The position numbers and the translations under genes were made by a program. Below, in pieces: positions 35,267 through 59,906 of a DNA stretch of 64,000 nucleotides. Every line of letters begins with the position of its first letter. Position 1 is the stretch's first letter. Where the stretch lies: contig BCIV01000015.1 in the NCBI GenBank assembly GCA_001600055.1, forward strand, positions 248,001 to 312,000, read 5' to 3'. The notes under the pieces are model-generated. The model was given only the letters and a program-made list of their open reading frames with translations. It had not been told where the DNA came from and made no database searches. The DNA is from Filobasidium wieringae. Its lineage: Eukaryota > Basidiomycota > Tremellomycetes > Filobasidiales > Filobasidiaceae.

Positions 35267-35434
35267 AGAGATAGAGTTGGAAACTTAACGAGACGGACAC
35301 CCCCCTTGGCTGATTCTTTTTACGACCCCTGTTTGTGTTTGGAACTATTTAACGAACGCTTTGCTACTGCTTGACACCGTAGTTTAGACTCGGACGTCAC
35401 TGTATTTAGCTTCGTGACCTTATGAATACCCTTG

Positions 35435-37309
35435 ATGGGTGAACTTGAATATCGCATACCTATACGTGAACCGCTTCCTCTTGGCCGCCGATCGATCCTA
35501 CCTGCCGAACTAAGACAAGCTCTAGTAGTGCCCTCGCTCGAAATCAACAACCAGGACTTCCACATGCATGCTGCCATCCTTGCTAGCAATAGCATATCGG
35601 TACTCATGGAAGACAGACCATATGCTTCAGACAGCGACTCGCCTTGGTCATCCGAGCAAGAGGAACCTATCGACGACTATAGTGATTCATCAAGCTCCAG
35701 CTCGGAGACTGTTTGGAACGAGTTGTTGGAGGGTCACTGCGGCATGCGGCTAACCCCTAGTCCTACAAATCTACCGAGAAAGATCGGGGCCCTTCGCCAA
35801 AGACTTTTCGAGCTATACAATGTTCTAGTGGATATCTACTCTCAATTAGAGAGCCCAACTCAGGCGTTGCATCCTTCCTCCGATGGTAGCTGGATAGTAG
35901 CGGTCGAACTTCTTACTTCGCTGGACATTCCCAAGCTGCAAGATCCAACGGAGCGTACTAATTATGAGCCTCCTGCACGTATGACTCTTGGTCAGTCAAT
36001 ACGTGAACGGGACAGAACGACGCATAAAGTCGCTGAGCGGCCTTTTATACGCTAGTCCTCATATTTACCATCATCAATGCGATCATTCAACGTTCCTCAA
36101 TTAAGCGTTCTTACAGGAAGGGTTTGGACTCCTCTGAAGCACGTGCTGAGGTTCAGTTTCGGTCAAGATTGCGCAATCTCAAAGACAGCCCAGTTTGGAT
36201 TTCTATCGAGAAACTATCACAGGTAAGCGAATATTTAGCCCTTGAACTGATTGCATCTTGAATCTTGGTCATGTACAGGAAAACCCTCCTCCCGAAGGGA
36301 TCATACGCCATCCTAGATTGCTTTGCAGGCTCGTCAAACTCGCCGTAAACCCGTACCCTGACACGATTTACAACTCGTTGTTGGATCTATCTAACCTGGA
36401 TGCAATCACTGCGGCGGGAGTCGCCGACTATCTTTGGATGGAAGCGCTCGTATGGCTATCTGGCGACAGATCAGTGTCGGTTGTCTCTACGCAATTACAA
36501 AGTTCTACCGACACTGAAGGGGCATCTCGCGAGATTCAGTTGCGCTTGCGGTGCATCGATATAAGTGGAACTTCTCTACTGGGCAGTAAGTCCACCGCGG
36601 TAGGGGTCTACACTAGAAATTCTGATTGGTCTTTGTAGTACCAAACTCAGTGTTACGGTTGGCTCCTAAATTGACTTGCACGGTGGCTCCTGAGGATTGG
36701 GGCAACTTAGGTTCTCTGGCATATGAACTGTCTAACCTTCATCATCAGCATTACACCATTCCGCACTATTTTCGTCGATGGGGATATACAAATCCAGACC
36801 ACAAATTGAGTGGAGACGATACATCGGTCATTAACCCTTTCAAGGGCATCAGCAATTTCAAGGTGCACAGGGAACACGTGCCTGCCCTCTATAAGGCTTT
36901 GAACAAATCCATCTACCATGAGCCTCTCGAGACGGATGAACACGACGATCTGGGCAAATTGGGAGCTCCTTGTCTCGTAGATATATTACGAGCCGCGATC
37001 GTACAAAGGATCGATCCAGATATCGTCTGGAAGAACGAGCCGTTAGGGATATCACGTATCAAAGAGTATTTCGCCGCGGACTCCAATCGACCATCGTCCG
37101 AAGGTTTCGATCAGCTTGATTCGATGGTTCCGCTTCAAATAATTGATTCACTTGCGTTTACTTGGTTTTGTCCGTGCAAGAGGATGAACGCAAATAGCGA
37201 CAGGAGAGGAAATGAAAAGTTCGTTTATCACTTGCCTGAAAGACTCTACCAAAGCAACGCCGTAGCCCAACTATGTACAGAATGCGAGGCGCGAACGAAC
37301 GCGGACTGA
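35435..37309 (+). CDS. Unknown protein with C-terminal CPC/CxxC cysteines
   Basis: I do not recognise this roughly 550-residue protein. Start at 35435 gives MGELEYRIPIREPLPLGRRS; four exons joined by short introns near 35992-36115, 36222-36279 and 36588-36638. The first part has an acidic/Ser run (DDYSDSSSSSSETVW). The middle looks folded (GVADYLWMEALVWLSGD, RHPRLLCRLVKLAVNPYPD). The last exon contains YTIPHYFRRWGYTNPDH, a phrase reading CLVDILRAAIVQRIDPD, and four cysteines, WFCPCKR then QLCTECEAR, that could bind zinc. No signal peptide or membrane segment. It may be lineage-specific. Confidence 0.65.
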
Positions 37310-48777: not shown

Positions 48778-49181
48778 ATGCCTACTTCATCCAGAAAATC
48801 TCGTACTTCGGTTCGCTCGGACGGTCCGACGGAAGTCGGCAGGTCAGTGATCCTTATCAGAACGCTGCGAAGTGTGTGACTGAACGACATAACCTTCATA
48901 TTTATAGCTCAGTGCAGACAAGCAATTCTGACGTAACACCAAATGGGTGCTTCACCTTTTGTGGTTATATCGGAACGGTGGATTTGAACAGACCTAAAAA
49001 CTGGATATATTCCGGACAAGACTGGAGCGCGATTCTGCGCGATCTGTCAATCTGTGAACGGCACTGGCAAAAGATTATGGGGCAGCTCGACGTGCTTGCA
49101 CTCGACAGTAGCCGTACTCGTATACATATAAAACTCCACGGATACGATTATGAACTACACCGTGTATCGAATATAGCCTAA
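48778..49181 (+). CDS. Array gene 1: CxxxC/CxxH module protein
   Basis: First intact member of the tandem family. Exons 48778-48842 and 48908-49181, intron 48843-48907 (GTCAGT, TTTATAG), give 112 residues. The N-terminus MPTSSRKSRTSVRSDG is Ser/Arg-rich. The module reads NGCFTFCGYIG, the Trp strand NWIYSGQDW, SICERHWQKIM and a last strand IHIKLHGYDYE. The knuckle is C-x3-C here, not C-x2-C. Exon 1 is 65 nt, the same length as exon 1 of array gene 5 (53911), whose protein also starts MP with a Ser..LysSerArg pattern. Function unknown; a zinc-binding treble-clef-like fold is inferred. Confidence 0.65.
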
Positions 49182-49312
49182 TGGTCATATCCAATCGTAA
49201 CAGCGCTAGATTCCAGTAAGATTAGATCAATATCGACAATTATTTTAGGCTAAGTTTGTTCGTTTTGAAACCTATGACTAAGTTTCGTTGAAGGAGAAAT
49301 TGAGAAACCTTG

Positions 49313-49558
49313 ACTTATGGTTCAATCCCCTCGTCTGGACAGACAAGTTCCTGTTGTCAAGTTCTTAGAAATTTATACTCGGGCCGTTTGATAAAGATAC
49401 GTGTTCACTGGGCACCGAGTTATAACGGTTACGACCTGTCGCTTATGGATGAATCGATGCCGACCAGTCACTCGCATGCATACAGCCCATCATGAGATTA
49501 CTGTACGTGTAAGACTACTGCCCAGCAAGAGAATTGGACCTTCGAGCTGTATCTATCC
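49313..49558 (+). pseudogene. Decayed array module (copy 2)
   Basis: One frame reads SSGQTSSCCQVLRNLYS, then RLIKIRVHWAPSYNG (a Trp strand in the expected place), then SMPTSHSHAYSPS where CxxH is expected but Cys is replaced, then a TGA, and after it a stretch ending WTFELYLS, resembling the final strand. The loss of the second knuckle Cys and of the CxxH Cys, plus the stop, suggest a relic. Modest support. Confidence 0.35.
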
Positions 49559-50033
49559 TGATCATGATAAATCTTTTGCGTCAGTGATCAAATCTTACGT
49601 TAGCTTCGGTAAGGGCTTCTACACGCGAGGTATCGCCTCCTACACTGGAGTCGGCTGAAACGTTCGCGGTTCTCTGCCGGTCCGCCGCGTACACCTGAAA
49701 CGCGCGCCCACGACAGCCTTCTCTTCAATTCCCCTTCAAGGCTGTATCACTACTGGTTACGAGGTTTGTTCTGTGATACTACCTTAGGAATCCACTATTG
49801 CCTGTCCTCTACCCCATCACGTACATAAAATGCTTCACATCGGTAACTCATATCTAGCCACCCAATGAACACGCGGTTCCGATAAACAACACCTGCTTGT
49901 GCTCGATTGTCGTCCCACCAAATTCGCAAACGTCACATTCGCGTCCTACCGTCCTTGAAGGAAGTATATACACAACAGTAGATGTGGGTGGGACATTGGA
50001 CTGACCACTCCATCGCCTGGGCTCATCACACAG

Positions 50034-50278
50034 ATGTCAAGTTCTCTGCCGATCTTACAAAACACGAATCAAGAGTGTAGGAACTGCGAATCCAAACTCG
50101 GAGTGGAAGTAGCTTGTCAAGATGGAATTGGATTCCCGTGCTAGAGATTTTGTTCTTCCTATGCTGCCAATAATTTCTCGACTCTGTTGCGGAATTTCCT
50201 AGTGGCAGGCTGCTATACAATTTTCTGGCACACGCACACGGCAGGTGTTCTTCGATGAGCCATTATGTCATTGCTAGT
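50034..50278 (+). pseudogene. Decayed array module (copy 3)
   Basis: From an ATG at 50034 the frame reads MSSSLPILQNTNQECRNCESKLG, with an intact CxxC, then a TAG. In the same frame it continues RFCSSYAANNFSTLLRNFL, where CxxY stands in for CxxH, and GCYTIFWHTHT for the last strand. His to Tyr and a Gln to TAG change would each need one C-to-T step. The Trp strand is missing. An undetected intron is an alternative to decay. Confidence 0.4.
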
Positions 50279-51090
50279 ATCATAACCCCGACATGATAAG
50301 GGGCGATCTTTGTGATGATTTTATCCAACCCACGAGGGAACTTTCATATCAGATTTACTCTTCAGTAATCTTTCCCGACAAGATTCCCTCCGCAGTCAGT
50401 AGAGTTATTTCGACATGATCTCAGAGATTGAGCTGCACCAACGCCTACCCCTCAGCGTCCATTGTGAGCTGCTTTACTGTTGGACTAGAAGTCTTCGACG
50501 ACGATCATTCCTGTGATGGCTGATTCGTGATGACACTCGCTTTTGACTTCGCTTCGTTTATTTATGGATTGAGCTTTGAGCTATGACTAATTCTGGGAAA
50601 TTCTCCTCGCACAGGAAATGTCGGCAAATGAATGCTCTTTCAGACCGATTGGGATGCGCGACATCTGAGCTGCCGTTCGGTGTTCGCTTGAAGGAGTAAA
50701 CGGTAAAAGGCTGTGAGCGCAGGATGCACTGGTATGGCAGCCACTAGCTGAGCTGTTACAACCTCTATCCAGCATACGCACGTTCGTACGAGACGCATCA
50801 ATAAGGGCAAATCAAAGGAAATCACCGTATGCAGGTTCGTTCCTCCCAAGCTTCTCGCGCCAGAGAAAACGACGTCATCTGAAAGGAAACAACTTCTTCA
50901 GAAGCCTTACACACCACTTAGCTCATGATCACAAGTCAGCTTCGAGCATTTAAGGATGACGAGGATTGTAAGTCTAAGCAGGCCATTCATTTTTACATGA
51001 ATCGCAGTGCTCAAGTAGTATTTTCGCCTCTCCTTGAGCTTATTGTGTCGTCAGCTATCATTGACTACATCGTCTATCAATAGTTTCAAT

Positions 51091-51653
51091 ATGTCCTTGT
51101 AAGCTCACCTTTTCTGTTCTCCATCGCTTGACTACTATTTGAAGTGTCCTTCTGGATCAACCCGCTTCAGGAATTCAAACGCGTTCTCCACCGTATCTCA
51201 AGATGGGACTGAGTAAGCCTTGTTTCCCGACCGGGCAGTCGATTCATGATTGAAAATGATTCGTGAAGCTCGTTCACAACTATAGCCAGCGTAGTACCCG
51301 AAGATTCTCGAACATTCACCGACAACGCTGGTGTGACAAGGGAGAGGGGCTCGACGTGGATTGGTATGCCCGTCACCAAAACCTTGTGTAATCTTTACGG
51401 TTGCCGAAAGGTTGCGGATGAGTCTCAATACGTTGAAAATTGCATCACCAGGGAGATGCATCGTGACTATTGGATCTGGTATTCGGACAAAAACCTCTGC
51501 CGTGAACATTTCCAAACGTTTTCGTTCCGCTTGCAAGTGCTCGACATAAAAAAGCGAGAGGAGGGGGTCTGGAGTATTCCTATCTTATTGGATGGTTTCC
51601 TTTGGCAACTCTATTCCAGCGAGAGCGACATGATAAAGCACCTGACTACCTGA
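51091..51653 (+). CDS. Array gene 2: CxxH module protein
   Basis: Three exons: 51091-51098 (ATG plus five bases), 51145-51212 and 51286-51653, all phases agreeing, give 147 residues. The N-terminal part (MSFVLLDQPASGIQTRS) is polar. The module reads TLCNLYGCRKVADES, the Trp strand DYWIWYSDK, NLCREHFQTFSFRL and last strand GFLWQLYSSES. The first knuckle is C-x4-C, wider than in most members. No signal peptide or membrane segment. The 8 nt first exon carries little evidence on its own, so the exact start is moderately sure. Function unknown. Confidence 0.6.
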
Positions 51654-51798
51654 TACCTTCGACTGGCGCATGATCTGTTTAGGTATAAATCGCCTCGTGA
51701 TTCGCTAGACATAAAATTTCGACGGATTAGTGATTTTGGATCGGTCATTTTACTTAACATCAAAGCATCACTACAGAAATACATTTCACCCATTTCTT

Positions 51799-52455
51799 AT
51801 GACTGCTGAGTATTGTGATCTCACCAGTTGGGCGTGAAATCTGGTTGGGTTGCGACGAGACCGCGTCTGCGCGTTGAATAGCTAAAGAGCACCAACTGTA
51901 CTGACAATCCATACGCGACTCATATGGCGTGACTGTCTCTTGATCATCATTGGTCGTGAATATTTCTTAGACTTCATTGGTCGTTGCTTCTCTCATCTGG
52001 CAGCTCAATAGGGCCCGGGTTGCATACCCTGTACGATAATGGTTTGCCGGAAATCCCATTTTTGCTGCCTGAAGAAGTGACCTTCTTCAACGCGGGGTGC
52101 AGGTGATCAAGATTAAGTATCTCGACTGTACCCTTCTCTCCTCGATTATAGTGATCTGGGATGCCGAGTGAGGGTGATCTCAAATGAAGCTTTATGTATA
52201 CACTGTAGCTTCCAGTCTAAACATCCATATCGCTATCGATTTCGTCTTCGCCTCAGACTTTATTGCCACCATAATTGGGTTTTACGTCTCTCACATGATT
52301 CGTTATCCTTCCGCTGTATCGAAACTAGGGTTCAGATCCCATGCGTCCTCGAGGCCAAAGGAAGGCGAATGGGGCAACACGACGTCTCGTGTTACATAGC
52401 CTATCTCGAGCGCATTGTCTTCGTCTTTAAAATACAACTCAAATCTGCATCCTGA
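51799..52455 (+). CDS. Array gene 3: module with diverged second ligand pair
   Basis: The 3' exon 52152-52455 and the exon before it, 51971-52102, are joined by a clear 49 nt intron (GTGATC, TTATAG) in phase 2. The start is uncertain; an 11 nt exon at 51799-51809 (ATGACTGCTGA) would fit phase 2 but has a weak donor. The module has NEALCIHCSFQSK (CxxC) and a Trp strand CHHNWVLRLS. The second site reads FRCIETRVQIP, with Thr where His is expected, and the last strand is RIVFVFKIQ. The missing His makes it a diverged or decaying member. Linker upstream is Ser/Gly/Pro-rich (LLLSSGSSIGPG). Confidence 0.5.
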
Positions 52456-52712
52456 GTTCTCCAGAAAACTTTCAGTTAGAGCCGCTCTGTAAAGGTAACC
52501 TTGGGGTGACCATACGACCTTCTTTTTCGCTGCCGTAAGTGACAGGTGGCTTGCAGAGACACTAACCCTGCTTGTTTCAGCCTCCTTTCATCAAGAGAAG
52601 TAAAATTCGCGCATCACGAATGTGATATCACATCTCCTGCGAACGTTATTTAAAGACTAGATAGTCAATAACCTCGTATTGTCGTCTATCCTGACTCTCT
52701 GCCCATACACCA

Positions 52713-53454
52713 ATGGATAATCTCACTATACAGTATGTGTAACCGAATGTACCAAGGCTAGCGGTATCGGTCCTGACATGACATGGCTCCCAGGGGTTCT
52801 AGCGATTGTTCACAATCGGAAGATGACGATAGTTTGGCTGAATGCGACGTTCCATCGTATTTGTGAGTGGGACCATTTCAATGCCAATCATCGCTGACAC
52901 GTTTCGCATGAGGAACCTCTAGCTACGCTATGAAGGGCTACACCATGGTACGCTCGGAAAACGAGTTGACTCCCCAGAACATTGATGCCCTAATCGAGAA
53001 GCTTAGCCGAACTGGCGTATCAATGGCGAAGGATATGTCCAGTGGAACTTCACATGACTTTGATCGGTCCGAAAACTCAGTTGGATCTGGAAGCACTCGC
53101 GAGAATTCGAGTCTCCACGAGAGTCCTTGGGAGATGTACTGGAAGTATAAGCAAAAGGAATGGTGCTGTATGTGTCCTACTCCAAGAACAAGCGGGTCCT
53201 TCTACGCTCTTCGCGTCATTTGGATCGACCAGGCTGGTGACGGGGAAGAAGGTCGGACAATTTCATTCTGCATGAAGCACCATGAACGGTTGAAGCCCAA
53301 TCTTGAGAAGGTCTTACGGGAGAGGACAACTTACATGCATGAGCACAGCGAAGAGTATGGTCAGGATGTCTTCATCTTCCGGGATGAGGAAACGAAGGCT
53401 CGGTTCATCAAGGATAATAGTCGCGCCGATCGAGTGGTATCTGGTGGATTGTAA
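52713..53454 (+). CDS. Array gene 4: CCxC/CxxH module protein
   Basis: Exons 52713-52732, 52794-52862 and 52923-53454, with GTATGT/CCCAG and GTGAGT/CTCTAG introns and a CTGAC branch in the first, give 206 residues in frame. N-terminus MDNLTIQGSSDCSQSEDDD, then a Ser/Gly-rich linker. The module reads KEWCCMCPTPRTSG, a Trp strand RVIWIDQAG, SFCMKHHERLKPNLEKVL and last strand DVFIFRDEETKARF, followed by a 17-residue tail. One of the clearest family members. Upstream, TTATTTAAAGAC at 52648 may serve as a TATA-like element. Function unknown; zinc binding inferred from the Cys/His pattern. Confidence 0.75.
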
Positions 53455-53910
53455 TCGTATTGGCATGCTCTTCCAATCCCTATACATGGGTTACCGATTT
53501 GCACGTGACACAAGATTACAAGCTATATAAGCTATATCGTTGCTTTTGATGTGGGACTGACCAATTACCAAGCTTATCAAGATGCTTCGCCTATGGTAAA
53601 TCAATTCGATAGGATTTTGCACCCGTCAGAATCGATAGTTCTCACCGCATCTCTTGCAACGGTATCAGAGGTGAGACTTCGCGTCCATTCTATCAGACGT
53701 CCTGAAACAATCTGTGGCTTTCCTTTTACATCCGCCTCCTTTGAACTTGCGTCGTCATCCACCTTGCAACCCTCGTTAACGAGAATCCAAGTGACAGTCA
53801 CATATATAGATATATGCAAACTACTACTCCTAATCTCAACATCTGACCCTCCGAGGCTTGGGTCATCTCGACTGAAAGGCATCGGATCGAGCATACGCAG
53901 AGACTACGCA
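53455..53910. promoter_or_regulatory. Promoter region of array gene 5
   Basis: 456 bp that contains the shared upstream element (53671-53740) and a TATATAGATATAT run near 53802. The open frames in it, on either strand, are not supported by family motifs. Confidence 0.5.
53671..53740 (+). repeat. Shared upstream element, copy 1
   Basis: Three blocks in fixed order: GTGAGACTTCGCG (53671-53683), CTGAAACAA (53702-53710) and TTCCTTTTACATCCGCCTCCT minus its ends (53720-53740). The same blocks occur upstream of array gene 6 at 55847-55910 with nearly the same spacing. The distance to the ATG here is 171 bp. Confidence 0.75.
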
Positions 53911-55313
53911 ATGCCTCGGAGGTCGTATTATAAGTCACGCAGGCCTCAGACTCCCGAGGAGGAACCTCTACATAGGTATACCATGCTGGATGCAGGTAAG
54001 CTAATCCCAGTACAAAATTGGCTGATGTTCTGCTCGATTCCCTGGACAGCTATTTCGCCTGGCGTTCTCCTGACGGAAGCTCTTCCATACCGATCACGAG
54101 GCCCTCAAGCACGACAGCCGTGCATTATTTCTCCAGGCCAAGTGGAACTTCTTCGCATGGTTCCAGCTCTTACATCCGTTCTACTCATACTACCGTTTCG
54201 GCCGAGGGCTCGCGGGCGAAGTAGGTCGTCAGGGTCTGCTTGGCTATCTTTCGACGCTGATTACCTTTTGGACACGTAGTACAGATAGCCAGTCTTTGGC
54301 AGCAATAAATAAAACCATGACTGGAAAGTATTGTTGCTTCTGCATGCGTTCAATTAGCGGTATACCTCTCGATACAACTACCTTCAATGCGTACGTCGCT
54401 TGGCTGCAGCACGGGAGTTATTTGCCCTCATTCACAATGATTGGAGGATGCGAGGTTCACAAACCAAGAGTCAGACAGATCATGAAGCAATGTGAGGAAG
54501 GGGACCGTATCGAAAACCCGATTGTCAGATTGTCGGGTTGGAAGGCGGATTTACATCTTTTCAAGCTTGTCAAAGATACTTCTCAGAATACAAGGTATGG
54601 TTTAGTTAGGGTAAAGGGAAAGGCTCAGATCATGCTCCTATTGATCCGCACTCCTCTCTCCACATTAGTATTCGCTCTCAGGGCACAGGTATCAGCCTAT
54701 CTGCCTCAAGGTAAATCTCCTATCCTTCTTTCGTGACATCTTGTCTCTTGGTTTGCGAGCCTGTTCTCTTTAGTGAGCAAACGAGTAGCGAGCGTCTCCA
54801 GTGAGTGTTATCCTTCCGACTCTACCCTCTTAATTGACAACATAGAACAACGCATATATTGTACTTCCGACTAGAAGCCACCGGTCATCGCGTCAACATG
54901 GGAAACGGTCAACAGGATCTCATCGAGCGGTGACGTATCGTGAAATTCCAGAGGCTCCGGCGGACGATTGGTTCAAGAAAAGAGAAGGACTACAAGCCTG
55001 TTGCCTCTGCTTGAAAGACCTGAGTCGAGACGATCAGGCGGTCGCGCTGGCCATAGAGGAGAAAGGTCACTTCAGGTGGCTCTGCTTGACGCGGGACTGG
55101 GGCACTTGGACTCAGCCATGTTGGACTTTAGTGGCTTGTTCCAAACATGAGAAGCCGCTACAAGAATTGACGGCTGAGGGGGAGCTCGGCCGAGCTTCCC
55201 CTAAACCTTTCTTTCTGGATCAGGCTCGGTTGTACCTGATCAACACTAACGAACATTTCAGAGACATCCAACAGGAAGCTTCCAAATGGTTATCTGATTG
55301 TCATCCCAAATAG
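53911..55313 (+). CDS. Array gene 5: two-module CCxC/CxxH protein
   Basis: Five exons keep frame throughout: 53911-53975, 54050-54220, 54280-54594, 54774-54800 and 54875-55313, giving 338 residues. Exon 1 encodes MPRRSYYKSRRPQTPEEE; exon 2 is a Ser/Thr-rich linker. Module 1: GKYCCFCMRSISG, AYVAWLQHG, GGCEVHKPRVRQIM, DLHLFKLVKD. A short linker with the 27 nt exon leads to module 2: QACCLCLKDLSRDD, HFRWLCLTRDW, VACSKHEKPLQEL, ARLYLINTNEH. Three internal exons are symmetric phase 2-2. The halves could instead be two genes, but no start or promoter is evident between them. Function unknown. Confidence 0.7.
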
Positions 55314-56119
55314 AAGTAGAGCAGTCAAAAGGGTCGGGAGGATATAGGGAAAAGAAAAGAGAACAAAACTAAGTGTACAAGGTAGATCTGTAAATTGCAC
55401 ATAAATCGCAAAAACAGCCATCAGCACGAATTGGCTCGGCCAGATGATAGCGACACGCTGACTTTGGTGCGGAAATCATGAGACTACCGTGTTGATCCTC
55501 GCACATTTTTGTGTATATCAGTCTCAGTGAAACGAGATAGCCTTCATCGCGCATGAGCTTCTTCACGCGGGTATAGAGGAAGTATCTTTTTCTGATGGTA
55601 GGTATATCCCAAACTGATCCGTCTCTTCACGAGTGGAAGGGAGCAGTATAAGTGTAGATGCACCCACAAGTCGAGGTTTATCGGACCGATTCAGAGCATC
55701 CGTTTTCTCGGTCATCGCGTTGCTTGAGATATCGGCAATATCAACGATCACCTCAGTGATAAAGATCTGTAAGCGAGACTTAGAGCTTAGGGTTGAAGAT
55801 CTGCCTGGCAAGGACTGACCCGCGCCGGCGTCCTCGCGTGATAGGCGTGAGACTTCGCGCTGGAGAAGCGATCTGAAACAACTGCTGCCTTCCTTTTATA
55901 TCCGCCTCCTCGACGCGTCATCGTTCACCGTTACTCCTTTCAACTTTGACAAGAGGAAGTAGAGGTTGCGTTTATATATGGCAACTTCTCCATGGTGAAT
56001 GATGATCGTCGTGACCTACTCGCCTTGAGGGATATATATTGGCTATCACATTTCAAGCAGCCCTATCTGACTTTACCTGACGTCAAGCACTTTTAAATCA
56101 AATCGATAGGACTCTCGCA
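55314..56119. promoter_or_regulatory. Intergenic between array genes 5 and 6
   Basis: About 800 bp. It contains the second copy of the shared upstream element (55847-55910) and a TTTATATATGG at about 55971. Open frames at 55563-55818 on both strands show no module motifs. Confidence 0.5.
55847..55910 (+). repeat. Shared upstream element, copy 2
   Basis: GTGAGACTTCGCG at 55847-55859, CTGAAACAA at 55873-55881 and the TTCCTTTTA-TATCCGCCTCCT block at 55890-55910. Spacing between blocks differs from copy 1 by only 5 and 1 bp. The array gene 6 ATG follows 210 bp downstream. Confidence 0.75.
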
Positions 56120-57981
56120 ATGGGAAAGCCCAGGTAAGTGCAACCGACGACTCCCTCAGCCCAAACCGAACAACCTTCAAATCGATTTCGGTTTCGCCCT
56201 GTGTCGATCCAAGGAAAGCTATAGTTAAAGACAAAAAACACGGCACCACCTCAGTGCGTGACAGGGGTTCAATTTCAGTTTCGAGAACTGAAAGATCGAA
56301 CTCGTCATTGTACACTCAAGAATCGGAGCCTGGAAGGTGAGCTGATTGAAGTTGAGCACTTGCAAATTCCATCTCCGATCTAGATTGCTCGTCATCATCA
56401 TGCCGCAGTTTCGCATCAAGTTCAAGAGGTGGAGGTGAGATATATCTTCAAGCTTGGAGAACCGTCTCAGTGCAATTCACGTTCAGTCCCCACCCATAGG
56501 TCCCCCGTCGGCTTCGCGTTCTAGCATCTTTACCTCTGGAGTATCGATCGTAGGCGCTAGATCCTATAATAGGTAAGCAATTTAGCCAGAGCTTCCTGAA
56601 TGGTAGTCATACTGATTTTATATCAAAGTCCCTCGGATGAATTTGTCGCGCTACTGAAAAAGAAAGGGGCAAAATGCTGCTTATGTGCCGCCCCTATGAG
56701 AGCCACCACGCACAAAGTGCAGGAACCAGACGTTTTCTATTGGAACGAAAGGGGTCGTGAGGTACATTCGCGTCGAGACATTGCGGTCTGTAAGACGCAT
56801 TCTTGCGTAGTAGAGGCGATGTTGGAGGCCTATAGACAGGGAGAAACTATACGGAGCGAGGACACTGAGGAACCTGGAATCACGTTCCACCTGTATCAAT
56901 CAAGGTATGTTTGCTGTGATTGATGTTGCTGTCTTTAGGAAAGACGATGAACAAATGATACCGTATTCCAGTTCTGCGTCCATTCTCCAGCCCCCTGCTA
57001 AGAGCGATCAAAGACCAAGACCTTATTTCAGACCAAGACCTCGTTCCAGGTACGTCTGACAGTAGTCCCATTGAATAGCCAAGCCATTGGCAACTCTGAG
57101 CCCAGTTTCTACTTCATATTTACTAGCCAGTCATCGCAATCGCCACAGAGTAGTAGACAGCACACGTGAGTAAGAGGTTGGCGATACGCTTACGACCCTA
57201 CTAAGCAGATTGAAACAGGAAACACGCGAGTACTCATCCTGAAGAACCCTCCAGATCTTATAGGGATCTTCCTGAGCCATACGAGCGATCTTACAGCGAG
57301 AGCTCCGCTAGTTCAGACGAGGAGGAAGACCAGCCTTTATGGCCTGCAGATAGTACCGGATATAGGCCTCCGGGCGTTCGGAAACAAAGATATGCCAGAT
57401 CAGGAAGTCCCCCTCAGGACGCTGAGGGAAACCATCTACGTCACTCTTCCCCACCGATTGACATTAGTTCGATCAATTTGAACGATGATGATCAAACCTC
57501 GTCGGGCGACGATCATACTGGATACAGTTACCCTCGCAATCCATTCTCTGGTGCCAGACCGAAGGTTGGCGCATCTGTGAGTTAATCTGAGCGTTCTACG
57601 CCAAGGTATCGTCATTTGTCTCACCCACGATCTGCTGGTCAGACCGAGACTTCGCCAGAAGACGATTTCATTCGTAAGAGGATTCATGAGAAGATCTGCG
57701 CGCTGTGCGATGAAAAGGCTATAAAGTCCTTCTCTGCCAAGGGCCTCTCCCAAGACGATAAAGCTAGATATCATTGGTGGATAGCGCCCAAAAACTCAAG
57801 TAGGGGTTTTAATTCAGAATCGTATGAAAAAGTCTGGGCGTGTAAGTCCCATGCAGAAGGTTTAAAGAATCAACACAAGCACGCCTATGAGACCGATGGA
57901 CAAGTTTTAGGGGCGAAAGGTAGTTACGATCACCACGAGGCCAACCTGTATATCTACCCTTCGGATCGTCATGTCCGATAA
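56120..57981 (+). CDS. Array gene 6: two-module CCxC/CxxH protein
   Basis: Nine exons stay in frame: 56120-56133, 56265-56336, 56409-56434, 56500-56572, 56629-56904, 56972-57049, 57127-57165, 57219-57576 and 57643-57981, giving 424 residues. N-terminus MGKPRGSISVSRTERSN leads into a Ser/Arg/Gly linker. Module 1: AKCCLCAAPMRATTH, DVFYWNERG, AVCKTHSCVVEAML, ITFHLYQS. A long Ser/Pro/Arg/Asp linker follows (YSESSASSDEEEDQ). Module 2: EKICALCDEKAIKS, RYHWWIAPK, WACKSHAEGLKNQ, ANLYIYPSDRH. Module 1 resembles gene 5 module 1 after CxxH (VxxxM...GD/ETI), and module 2 resembles gene 5 module 2. If the 56905-56971 intron is retained, the first module ends at a stop near 56923. Confidence 0.7.
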
Positions 57982-58062
57982 CCAGAGAAAGTTGGATCAG
58001 ACGATGTTAATGGTGTTCACCCGCGTTTGAAAAGCCAAATCGTGTAATATTTTGTGTGGAAT

Positions 58063-58347
58063 TAGTCTGAATGTAACGAAGGGAACGGAAAGGTGTCGAA
58101 GATATCGAAGGCTAGCTATCCAGTCACACGGTCCATCAATGCAAGAACGGACATCAAAAGTTCGTACAAAATGTCGAATGGGACTTTGAGGAGCAATATA
58201 ACACATAATCCGAACTCTGATTCCGAAGTACACAAACTGGGCACGGCTGCTGTATGCAAGGAGCATAGGAATCGGCTGGAAGAGATGACGAAGAAAGTGT
58301 CGGGCGAAACCTGGACCAAGGTATACGAGGCGAATTTTGGTGTGTAG
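58063..58347 (+). pseudogene. Truncated array module (second half only)
   Basis: Open frame 110 bp after array gene 6. It has no CxxC and no Trp strand but keeps TAAVCKEHRNRLEEMTKKV and a last strand WTKVYEANFG before a stop. Near its start CNEG could be a ruined knuckle. No good ATG at the front; an internal ATG at 58171 is possible. Best read as a truncated or decaying copy, though an undetected upstream exon could supply the missing half. Confidence 0.4.
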
Positions 58348-58779
58348 TATCATCAGTGAGGTCGTTGTGGAACTTCGATCGGTCGCTTTAGTTATCATCA
58401 GACAGGACACCACAGTTCATGACACTGAGTTGAGACAGATTGTAGGCACTACAACTTATCTAGCACTGGTTGAGTTTGCAACCTTATAAACGGCTGGCCA
58501 GGCTATCTTTCGTATGCCCTTGATGATTTTACTCCATATATACAATCTGGCTTTGAGCTTTGCACAAACACATAACACGTCACAAGCAGACGTATTCGAC
58601 CTTCCTTCCTTTCACGCGTATTTTTTGCTTCTTGTGACACTATGGGATTTCCTTTCATCCTTTGTCTCTCTAGAATGCTTGTATTTAAGATACTCGAACA
58701 CCTGAGATCCATCAGATAGTCTCTCTTGCCTTGGCCGCTCATATCAGGGTGGTTCATCTGTAGTTACGTGCATTTCCAA
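58348..58779. other. Intergenic before array gene 7
   Basis: 432 bp, presumed promoter of array gene 7. I do not see the shared element of genes 5 and 6. The short open frames lack module motifs. Confidence 0.45.
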
Positions 58780-59906
58780 ATGAACAAAAGACGCCAGAAC
58801 CTAGCTTTTATACATGATCCAGGATCAGGCCGACAGTCCATAGGCCGGCTGAATAGGGCTGGTCGTACATCATCAGACCGCACGAAGGGAACACCTTCCC
58901 GAACATCTCATAGTACTCCTACTAATCACCCGAGCGAGTCTTGCGAATCAAGTTCGACCAAAAGTGGCGCGAACACACAAACAGCTCAAACCATATGCTC
59001 ATCTCAGGTGGGCCACTGTGACACTGGGTCTGATTCCCTATACGGTTAGTTGCGGGTGACTCCAGCAGTCTTTAGTCAATAAGGAATGGATGATAGGGAA
59101 GTGTGTCACTGATCTGACGCTTCTTCATAGCAGCTTACTCAGGGGATGGCCGGAATTCATTGACCTCACCAGCGGGCGGGCAAGGTACTTCTGACTGGCA
59201 AAAGTACCTTGTTACTCCTCAGGTTAAAATACCTCTGAGCAATTTCCCGACGATTCACTACGCAGATTTCAAGACAGGGTTTCCGGCGACCTTACCAGAG
59301 AATGCCCACTATGCGGCGCAGACAGAGCAGCCGACGTAAGCTCCTCATGCGACTTCCTTTGTAATCGACCTGACTTGTCTTTTTCAACGCAGGTCTTCGA
59401 ACCAAGACAGCCCTTGCCAGTCTGAAGATGATTCGGAAGAGGGCTCAGGGTGCGAGTACGATTCAGAGGCGAGCAATCCGGCTGATGAAGCCTGGGCCAG
59501 TGATGCTAGCGGAGATGATGCTGATGACGACGAAGACGACGCCGCGTCGAATTGCTCTCAAACAAAAGCTAATCGTGCGGATAGCACCTGGGAATATTTC
59601 AGGTCGAGAAAACCGGGTAAACTGTGCTGTATATGTGGCAGCATTGGAGCGGGTGAGAAGATAAAGCCAAGGCGCCCAGCAGCTTTCTTCTGTTACATAC
59701 ATAACGGAAAATGGTCAAAGAGATTCAAGACGGTCCGACCGTGCAAGGATCACCGAACTGTAGTTGATACCTTGATCAAGGGCGAAGGTCACGCAAGTTT
59801 GCAGGCCCTAAGGCTCAACGCGACGTTTTGGTTATTCCACGATGAAGAAGATTTTGCTGTGGTTCAAAGTTCCGATATACCTCTGGACCGATTGGGTCCG
59901 ATCTAA
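58780..59906 (+). CDS. Array gene 7: CCxC/CxxH module protein
   Basis: Exons 58780-59044, 59131-59335 and 59393-59906 with GTTAGT/TTCATAG and GTAAGC/ACGCAG introns give 327 residues. The first two exons code a Ser/Thr/Arg-rich disordered region (MNKRRQNLAFIHDPGSGRQ), then an acidic run (DDADDDEDDAAS). The module is at the C-terminus: GKLCCICGSIGAGEK, a strand AFFCYIHNGKW, RPCKDHRTVVDTLI, and last strand ATFWLFHDEEDF, ending RLGPI. It is the best-preserved member at the right edge of the array. Function unknown. Confidence 0.75.

Follow-up and report, generated by a model that had tools for sequence, protein, structure and literature searches.

A tandem array of putative zinc-type modules from an unnamed family in Filobasidium wieringae

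Introduction

Several described protein families combine paired Cys and His ligands with a small fold, or arrange such domains in gene clusters. The THAP domain (C2CH, PF05485) follows the rule C-x2-4-C-x35-50-C-x2-H, with a Trp between the ligand pairs, and its secondary structure elements run beta-alpha-beta. HNH nucleases carry, beyond their metal ligands, an invariant catalytic His (and Asn/His). The FLZ (FCS-like) domain defines a plant family. In vertebrates, the KRAB-type zinc-finger genes are clustered and lineage-specific, and they encode C2H2 repeats.

The locus described here, in the 19.76 Mb genome (33 contigs) of Filobasidium wieringae, recalls the THAP domain in its ligands and the KRAB-type genes in its arrangement; it appears to be a genuine small, unnamed family of zinc-type modules in tandem. 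The window, i.e., the whole stretch of DNA that was analyzed, is 64,000 nucleotides long, corresponds to bases 248001-312000 of a 632,860 bp contig, and has a G+C content of 46-53% per 2-kb step. As fits a tremellomycete, the IMP dehydrogenase exon of this genome finds its best PDB match in entry 4af0, the enzyme of Cryptococcus neoformans. All positions below are those of the window.

The array, its gene models, and its neighborhood

A first, sequence-only reading had proposed a tandem array on one strand, and this arrangement holds: from the first ATG at 48778 to the last stop at 59906, eight complete modules and one partial module were found by reading in all frames, all of them on the + strand (Table 1). 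Six of ten neighboring ORFs matched Pfam families: a GNL3L/Grn1-type GTPase, a Ulp1-type protease, two AAA ATPase fragments, and a NAT10-like acetyltransferase, with a BPG-independent phosphoglycerate mutase on the right-hand side of the array. By eye, the ORFs at 43-46 kb resemble a P-type ATPase; the single ORF scanned there had no Pfam match. Separately, ORFs at 35426-37309, perhaps one gene, carry a terminal C-x-C ... C-x2-C stretch; the ORF at 36626-37306 within them had no Pfam match, and the interval gave no match above 2 bits with the array profile.

Table 1. Genes (G), modules (M), and upstream blocks of the array.
Feature	Position	Strand	Description
G1	48778-49181	+	Exons 48778-48842, 48908-49181; 112 aa; forced model
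M1 (in G1)	48948-49178	+	C-x3-C, W, CERH; left-out score 12.1 bits, reached by 0/100 shuffles
G2, doubtful member	51366-51653	+	ORF; upstream exons of the forced model uncertain
M2 (in G2)	51381-51647	+	C-x4-C, W, CREH; landmarks by reading
G3	52713-53454	+	Exons 52713-52732, 52794-52862, 52923-53454; 206 aa; relative P0003
M3 (in G3)	53146-53448	+	Module
G4 upstream block	53671-53825	+	Similar to 55847-55989
G4, two modules	53911-55313	+	Exons 53911-53995, 54050-54220, 54285-54594, 54669-54688, 54916-55313
M4 (in G4)	54317-54595	+	Module
M5 (in G4)	54981-55307	+	Module; relative P0002
G5 upstream block	55847-55989	+	Similar to 53671-53825
G5, two modules	56120-57981	+	Exons 56120-56133, 56214-56336, 56384-56434, 56525-56572
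G5, continued	to 57981	+	Exons 56629-56904, 56991-57049, 57106-57169, 57219-57576, 57643-57981
M6 (in G5)	56651-56908	+	Module
M7 (in G5)	57685-57975	+	Module
M8, relic	58159-58347	+	CxxH half only; profile match E 0.0023
G7	58780-59906	+	Exons 58780-59044, 59134-59335, 59393-59906; 326 aa; relative P0001
M9 (in G7)	59610-59900	+	Module after acidic/Ser-rich tail

The genes were modeled with a simple splice-and-frame search that was forced through the modules. Two parts were set separately from these automatic models: the start and first exons of G5, where the automatic model had picked a different start, and the joint between M4 and M5 in G4. The latter was made by hand, in frame and guided by the metagenomic relative P0002; the automatic model joined the two modules differently, and we prefer the joint that agrees with P0002. 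Without forcing, the search returned identical exons for G3, did not recover G1, G2, or G4, and left the modules of G5 and G7 not intact. Introns are of the GT-AG type and, leaving G2 aside, 47-90 nt long, plus one of 227 nt in G4. Codon usage lends the gene models no support: the modules score from -0.082 to 0.027, below most flanking genes (0.006 to 0.143), and the score of each module is reached by at least 4 of 26 out-of-frame windows.

The partial module, M8, matches the family profile with 10.9 bits at positions 34-63. A knuckle-like CNILC lies upstream of its CxxH half in another frame. When stops were read as X, the + strand of the array yielded no other decayed copy that scored above 2 bits, nor did anything above 2 bits appear outside the array in 264 kb; the proposal of about three decayed copies thus comes down to M8, the only one detectable even with stops read through. 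Elsewhere, a CPLC knuckle at about 59304 (59304-59339, ECPLCGADRAAD) was dismissed, because the frame spliced at 59335/59393 in the G7 model differs from that of CPLC; its similarity to the knuckle of M6 is probably due to chance.

Seven modules form one family

In all eight complete modules, C-x(2-4)-C is followed after 30-44 residues by C-x2-H. Between the ligand pairs runs a strand with a central Trp in seven of the eight (a Tyr in M9), the CxxH lies at a helix, and a last strand carries an aromatic or hydrophobic pair. The four landmarks of the initial description therefore keep their order, with a less strict Trp and a last strand not confined to Tyr/Phe. Identity among members is very low, as had been noted (18-33% over 28 module pairs), and only C, C, C, and H are invariant in the alignments, a pattern that favors a scaffold over a conserved catalytic site.

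Family membership was assessed with leave-one-out profiles. They were searched against all six-frame ORFs (30 aa or longer; 5,451 in number) of the window plus 200 kb of flanking DNA (264 kb in total). Among these ORFs, M3, M4, M6, M7, and M9 ranked first, and M1 and M5 ranked second, each behind the relic M8, which had not been used in the profiles; M2 ranked 24th (E 16). As a control, every module was shuffled 100 times with its four ligand positions held fixed. The left-out scores of the eight modules sum to 150 bits, whereas none of the 100 shuffles exceeded 41.4, and M1, M3, M4, M5, M6, M7, and M9 each outscored all 100 of their shuffles, whereas the score of M2 was reached by 7 of 100. 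Given these ranks and shuffle results, seven modules, spread over five genes (M1; M3; M4+M5; M6+M7; M9), form one family at the sequence level, and M2, which has the landmarks and no profile support, may be a member. The original count of seven genes with nine modules is thus upheld for five genes and seven modules; the remainder comprises M2, which is unsupported, and M8, which is a half-module.

That these modules are chance finds, i.e., unrelated ORFs that happen to contain Cys and His, has almost no probability left and is refuted for the seven. M2 alone would fit such an explanation, and codon usage is not distinctive; against it stand the summed score, the result of the shuffles for seven of eight modules, and three close relatives that keep the reading frame.

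Relatives in metagenomes

A database of 5.8 billion sequences, searched at the protein level, contained three matches in total, all from JGI metagenomes. P0001 is identical to G7 (M9) at 159 of 181 residues (88%), with one in-frame 3-residue indel; P0002 to G4 (M5) at 97 of 134 (72%); and P0003 to G3 (M3) at 142 of 174 (82%), free of gaps. P0001 and P0002 were found with all eight modules as query, and P0003 with M3, M6, and M7. No relatives of M1, M2, or M4, nor of M6 or M7, were found among the 5.8 billion sequences; this database is presumably poor in fungal genomes, so few matches are no proof that the family is rare. The three proteins retain all ligands and have only in-frame indels. They are probably orthologues, and their identities of 72-88% suggest that at least three genes of the array have been maintained.

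These pairs also bear on the tempo of change. Module and tail are about equally conserved in the M3 pair (82 vs. 81% identical) and in the M5 pair (74 vs. 76%, with a tail of only 21 residues), and the module is slightly better kept in the M9 pair (91 vs. 86%).

In G4, two copies of TCTCA, 242 bp apart, bracket a stretch (54676-54922) that is apparently missing from the source of P0002: the P0002 protein reads IRSHRAV, and the model of the window reads IRSQGTGSHRAV across an extra intron. This stretch might be an intron gained through insertion; a search of the genome with it returned only itself.

Duplication history

The genes G4 and G5 appear to have a common origin. Their modules pair in order (M4-M6, z 6.8; M5-M7, z 4.8; crossed pairs, z 3.0 and 3.7), as expected if both genes derive from one two-module gene. 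This duplication story is complicated by M6, whose best partner is M9 (z 9.6) and not M4; M4 is equally close to M9 and M6. In addition, similar blocks of about 150 bp precede the two genes, with 102 of 139 aligned bases identical (73%) and a local alignment z of 13.8 against mononucleotide shuffles. No other pair among 12 upstream, intergenic, or control stretches exceeded z 3.5. At up to two mismatches, the core 20-mer of the block has two matches in the genome, those upstream of G4 and G5 (reversed control: one match).

The coding DNA of M4/M6 and of M5/M7 is 39% identical, and third codon positions are at chance (24 and 29%, respectively). Given this saturation, the upstream block may have been selected or later exchanged, and the low identity of the proteins may reflect age, with no special speed needed. 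The fast divergence that had been read as a sign of an arms race thus gains no support: third positions are at chance, and module and tail change about alike in the M3 and M5 pairs. Copy decay is confined to M8, the single detectable relic. An arms race is possible but unsupported.

Predicted structure and protein properties

In Pfam, NCBIfam, and PHROGs, and in the PDB at both the sequence and the fold level, all matches were at chance level. No Pfam family was reached at E <= 5 with eight sequences; with 11 sequences, only RecD_N and zf-FLZ were listed at E <= 10, although the filters of HMMER discard the majority of matches weaker than about E 0.1. The AlphaFold2 model of M3, built from 10 sequences, is of moderate confidence (pLDDT 75.8, pTM 0.63) and contains a CxxC knuckle, a beta-hairpin, and a CxxH at the N-terminus of helix 51-66; the model of M6 is weak (pLDDT 64.4). 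Fold comparisons with the PDB gave no convincing match. The M3 model suggests a treble-clef-like site, in line with the initial suggestion of such a site in an unnamed family, and neither sequence-profile nor fold searches placed any member in an unrelated known family of Pfam, NCBIfam, PHROGs, or the PDB.

Hydropathy profiles of the five predicted models examined (G1, G2, G3, G5, and G7) showed neither a hydrophobic leader nor a membrane segment; the highest 9-residue value near the predicted N-termini is at most 1.42. For these models, the result agrees with the claim that signal peptides are lacking and speaks against a secreted cysteine-rich protein. The Ser/Arg-rich tails announced earlier exist as Ser/Arg/acidic stretches, placed before or between the modules and not only after them. 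N-termini are basic in G4, G5, and G7, and acidic tracts occur in G3 and G7. Net charge of the modules ranges from -2.9 to +6.1, with M9 (+6.1) and M4 (+3.7) basic, M5 and M2 acidic, and M3 neutral; with such a spread no common nucleic-acid surface is evident, and DNA, RNA, and protein partners are indistinguishable.

Possible functions

Four invariant ligands, the lack of a leader or membrane stretch in the five models examined, and charged Ser-rich tails make a metal-held intracellular binding module the simplest reading. We give about an even chance to the proposal that the array encodes lineage-restricted, small fungal intracellular, probably nuclear, binding proteins with a metal module, which arose by tandem duplication. 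In such proteins, a low-complexity tail of Ser, basic, and acidic residues would lead into one or two modules of about 90 residues, each of them binding a metal, presumably zinc, through its C-x(2-4)-C and C-x2-H. The predicted scaffold would be treble-clef-like, with a knuckle, a beta-hairpin, a CxxH-capped helix, and a second hairpin; the modules may act as binding domains whose ligands and core stay constant while their surfaces vary, and the partner would be DNA, RNA, chromatin, or a protein, probably in the nucleus. Tandem duplication would have produced the genes, with G4 and G5 issuing from one two-module gene and keeping a shared upstream control block. A more far-reaching version, which we consider distinctly improbable, is that of an unrecognized tremellomycete zinc-scaffold family with a two-module founder, which would recognize nucleic acids or proteins that themselves change, for example those of mobile elements or mating partners; the four ligands would fix the scaffold, other surfaces would be free to change, and the upstream block would fix regulation.

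The modules could instead be the fingers with which lineage-specific transcription or silencing factors bind particular DNA sequences, comparable to the clustered zinc-finger genes of animals. This is unlikely, yet a serious alternative: basic N-termini, acidic Ser-rich tracts, the C-terminal position of the modules, and the basic M9 and M4 agree with it, while the acidic M5 and M2, the neutral M3, the lack of any match to a DNA-binding family in Pfam, and the presence of just one or two modules per protein do not. Rather improbable is the hypothesis of an arms race, in which the genes would serve recognition or conflict (allorecognition, or defense against transposons or viruses) and diversify rapidly. 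A tandem array with very low identity between paralogues, a relic, and close relatives for M3, M5, and M9 only would suit such genes; but third codon positions between the G4 and G5 modules are saturated, so the low identity can be explained by age. The relatives that exist are 72-88% identical, and they sit on metagenome contigs only a few kb long, which makes absences say little. Domesticated pieces of mobile elements, such as the zinc domain of a transposase or HNH nuclease, are very improbable: no fold comparison reached a Z of 5, the M6 model is weak, the four ligands are the sole invariant residues, and no transposase domain occurs among the 10 neighboring ORFs scanned (four without any match). 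A genome search with 49190-51240 also matched only itself, which is no proof of rarity.

Returning to the intracellular binding modules, if zinc is bound as modeled, they would constitute a C2CH domain new to the family libraries searched, and the compact cluster and its three close relatives offer starting material for studying it. With their upstream block conserved and their coding sequence saturated, G4 and G5 also offer a way to tell which features are retained (perhaps regulation) and which may change (the protein surface).

Comparison with described families

Among the systems introduced above, HNH and other His-Me finger nucleases occupied the top rows of VIA for the weak M6 model, all at Z < 5, and are disfavored since the modules have no invariant residue beyond their four ligands. 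FLZ (PF04570) reached at best E 0.15 in 1 of 11 sequences, which is chance level, and its ligands are C2-C2 according to the Pfam description, whereas those of the array are C2-CH; membership was rejected on both grounds. The THAP domain shares with the modules the ligand set C-x(2-4)-C ... C-x2-H and the intervening Trp. Its first gap (2-4) is matched by all eight modules and its second (35-50) by only four (30-44 in the array), and the hairpin-then-helix order of the M3 model differs from the beta-alpha-beta order of THAP. With its spacing rule followed by only half of the modules and no PF05485 match in the Pfam scans, THAP membership was rejected; a genome profile search for PF05485 was silent, as were its controls. 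Like the KRAB-type clusters, the array is a tandem arrangement of related genes, but it is small, with one or two modules per gene that are not C2H2 repeats. Treble-clef zinc domains have a possible counterpart in the M3 model, with its predicted CxxC knuckle, beta-hairpin, and second ligand pair where a helix begins.
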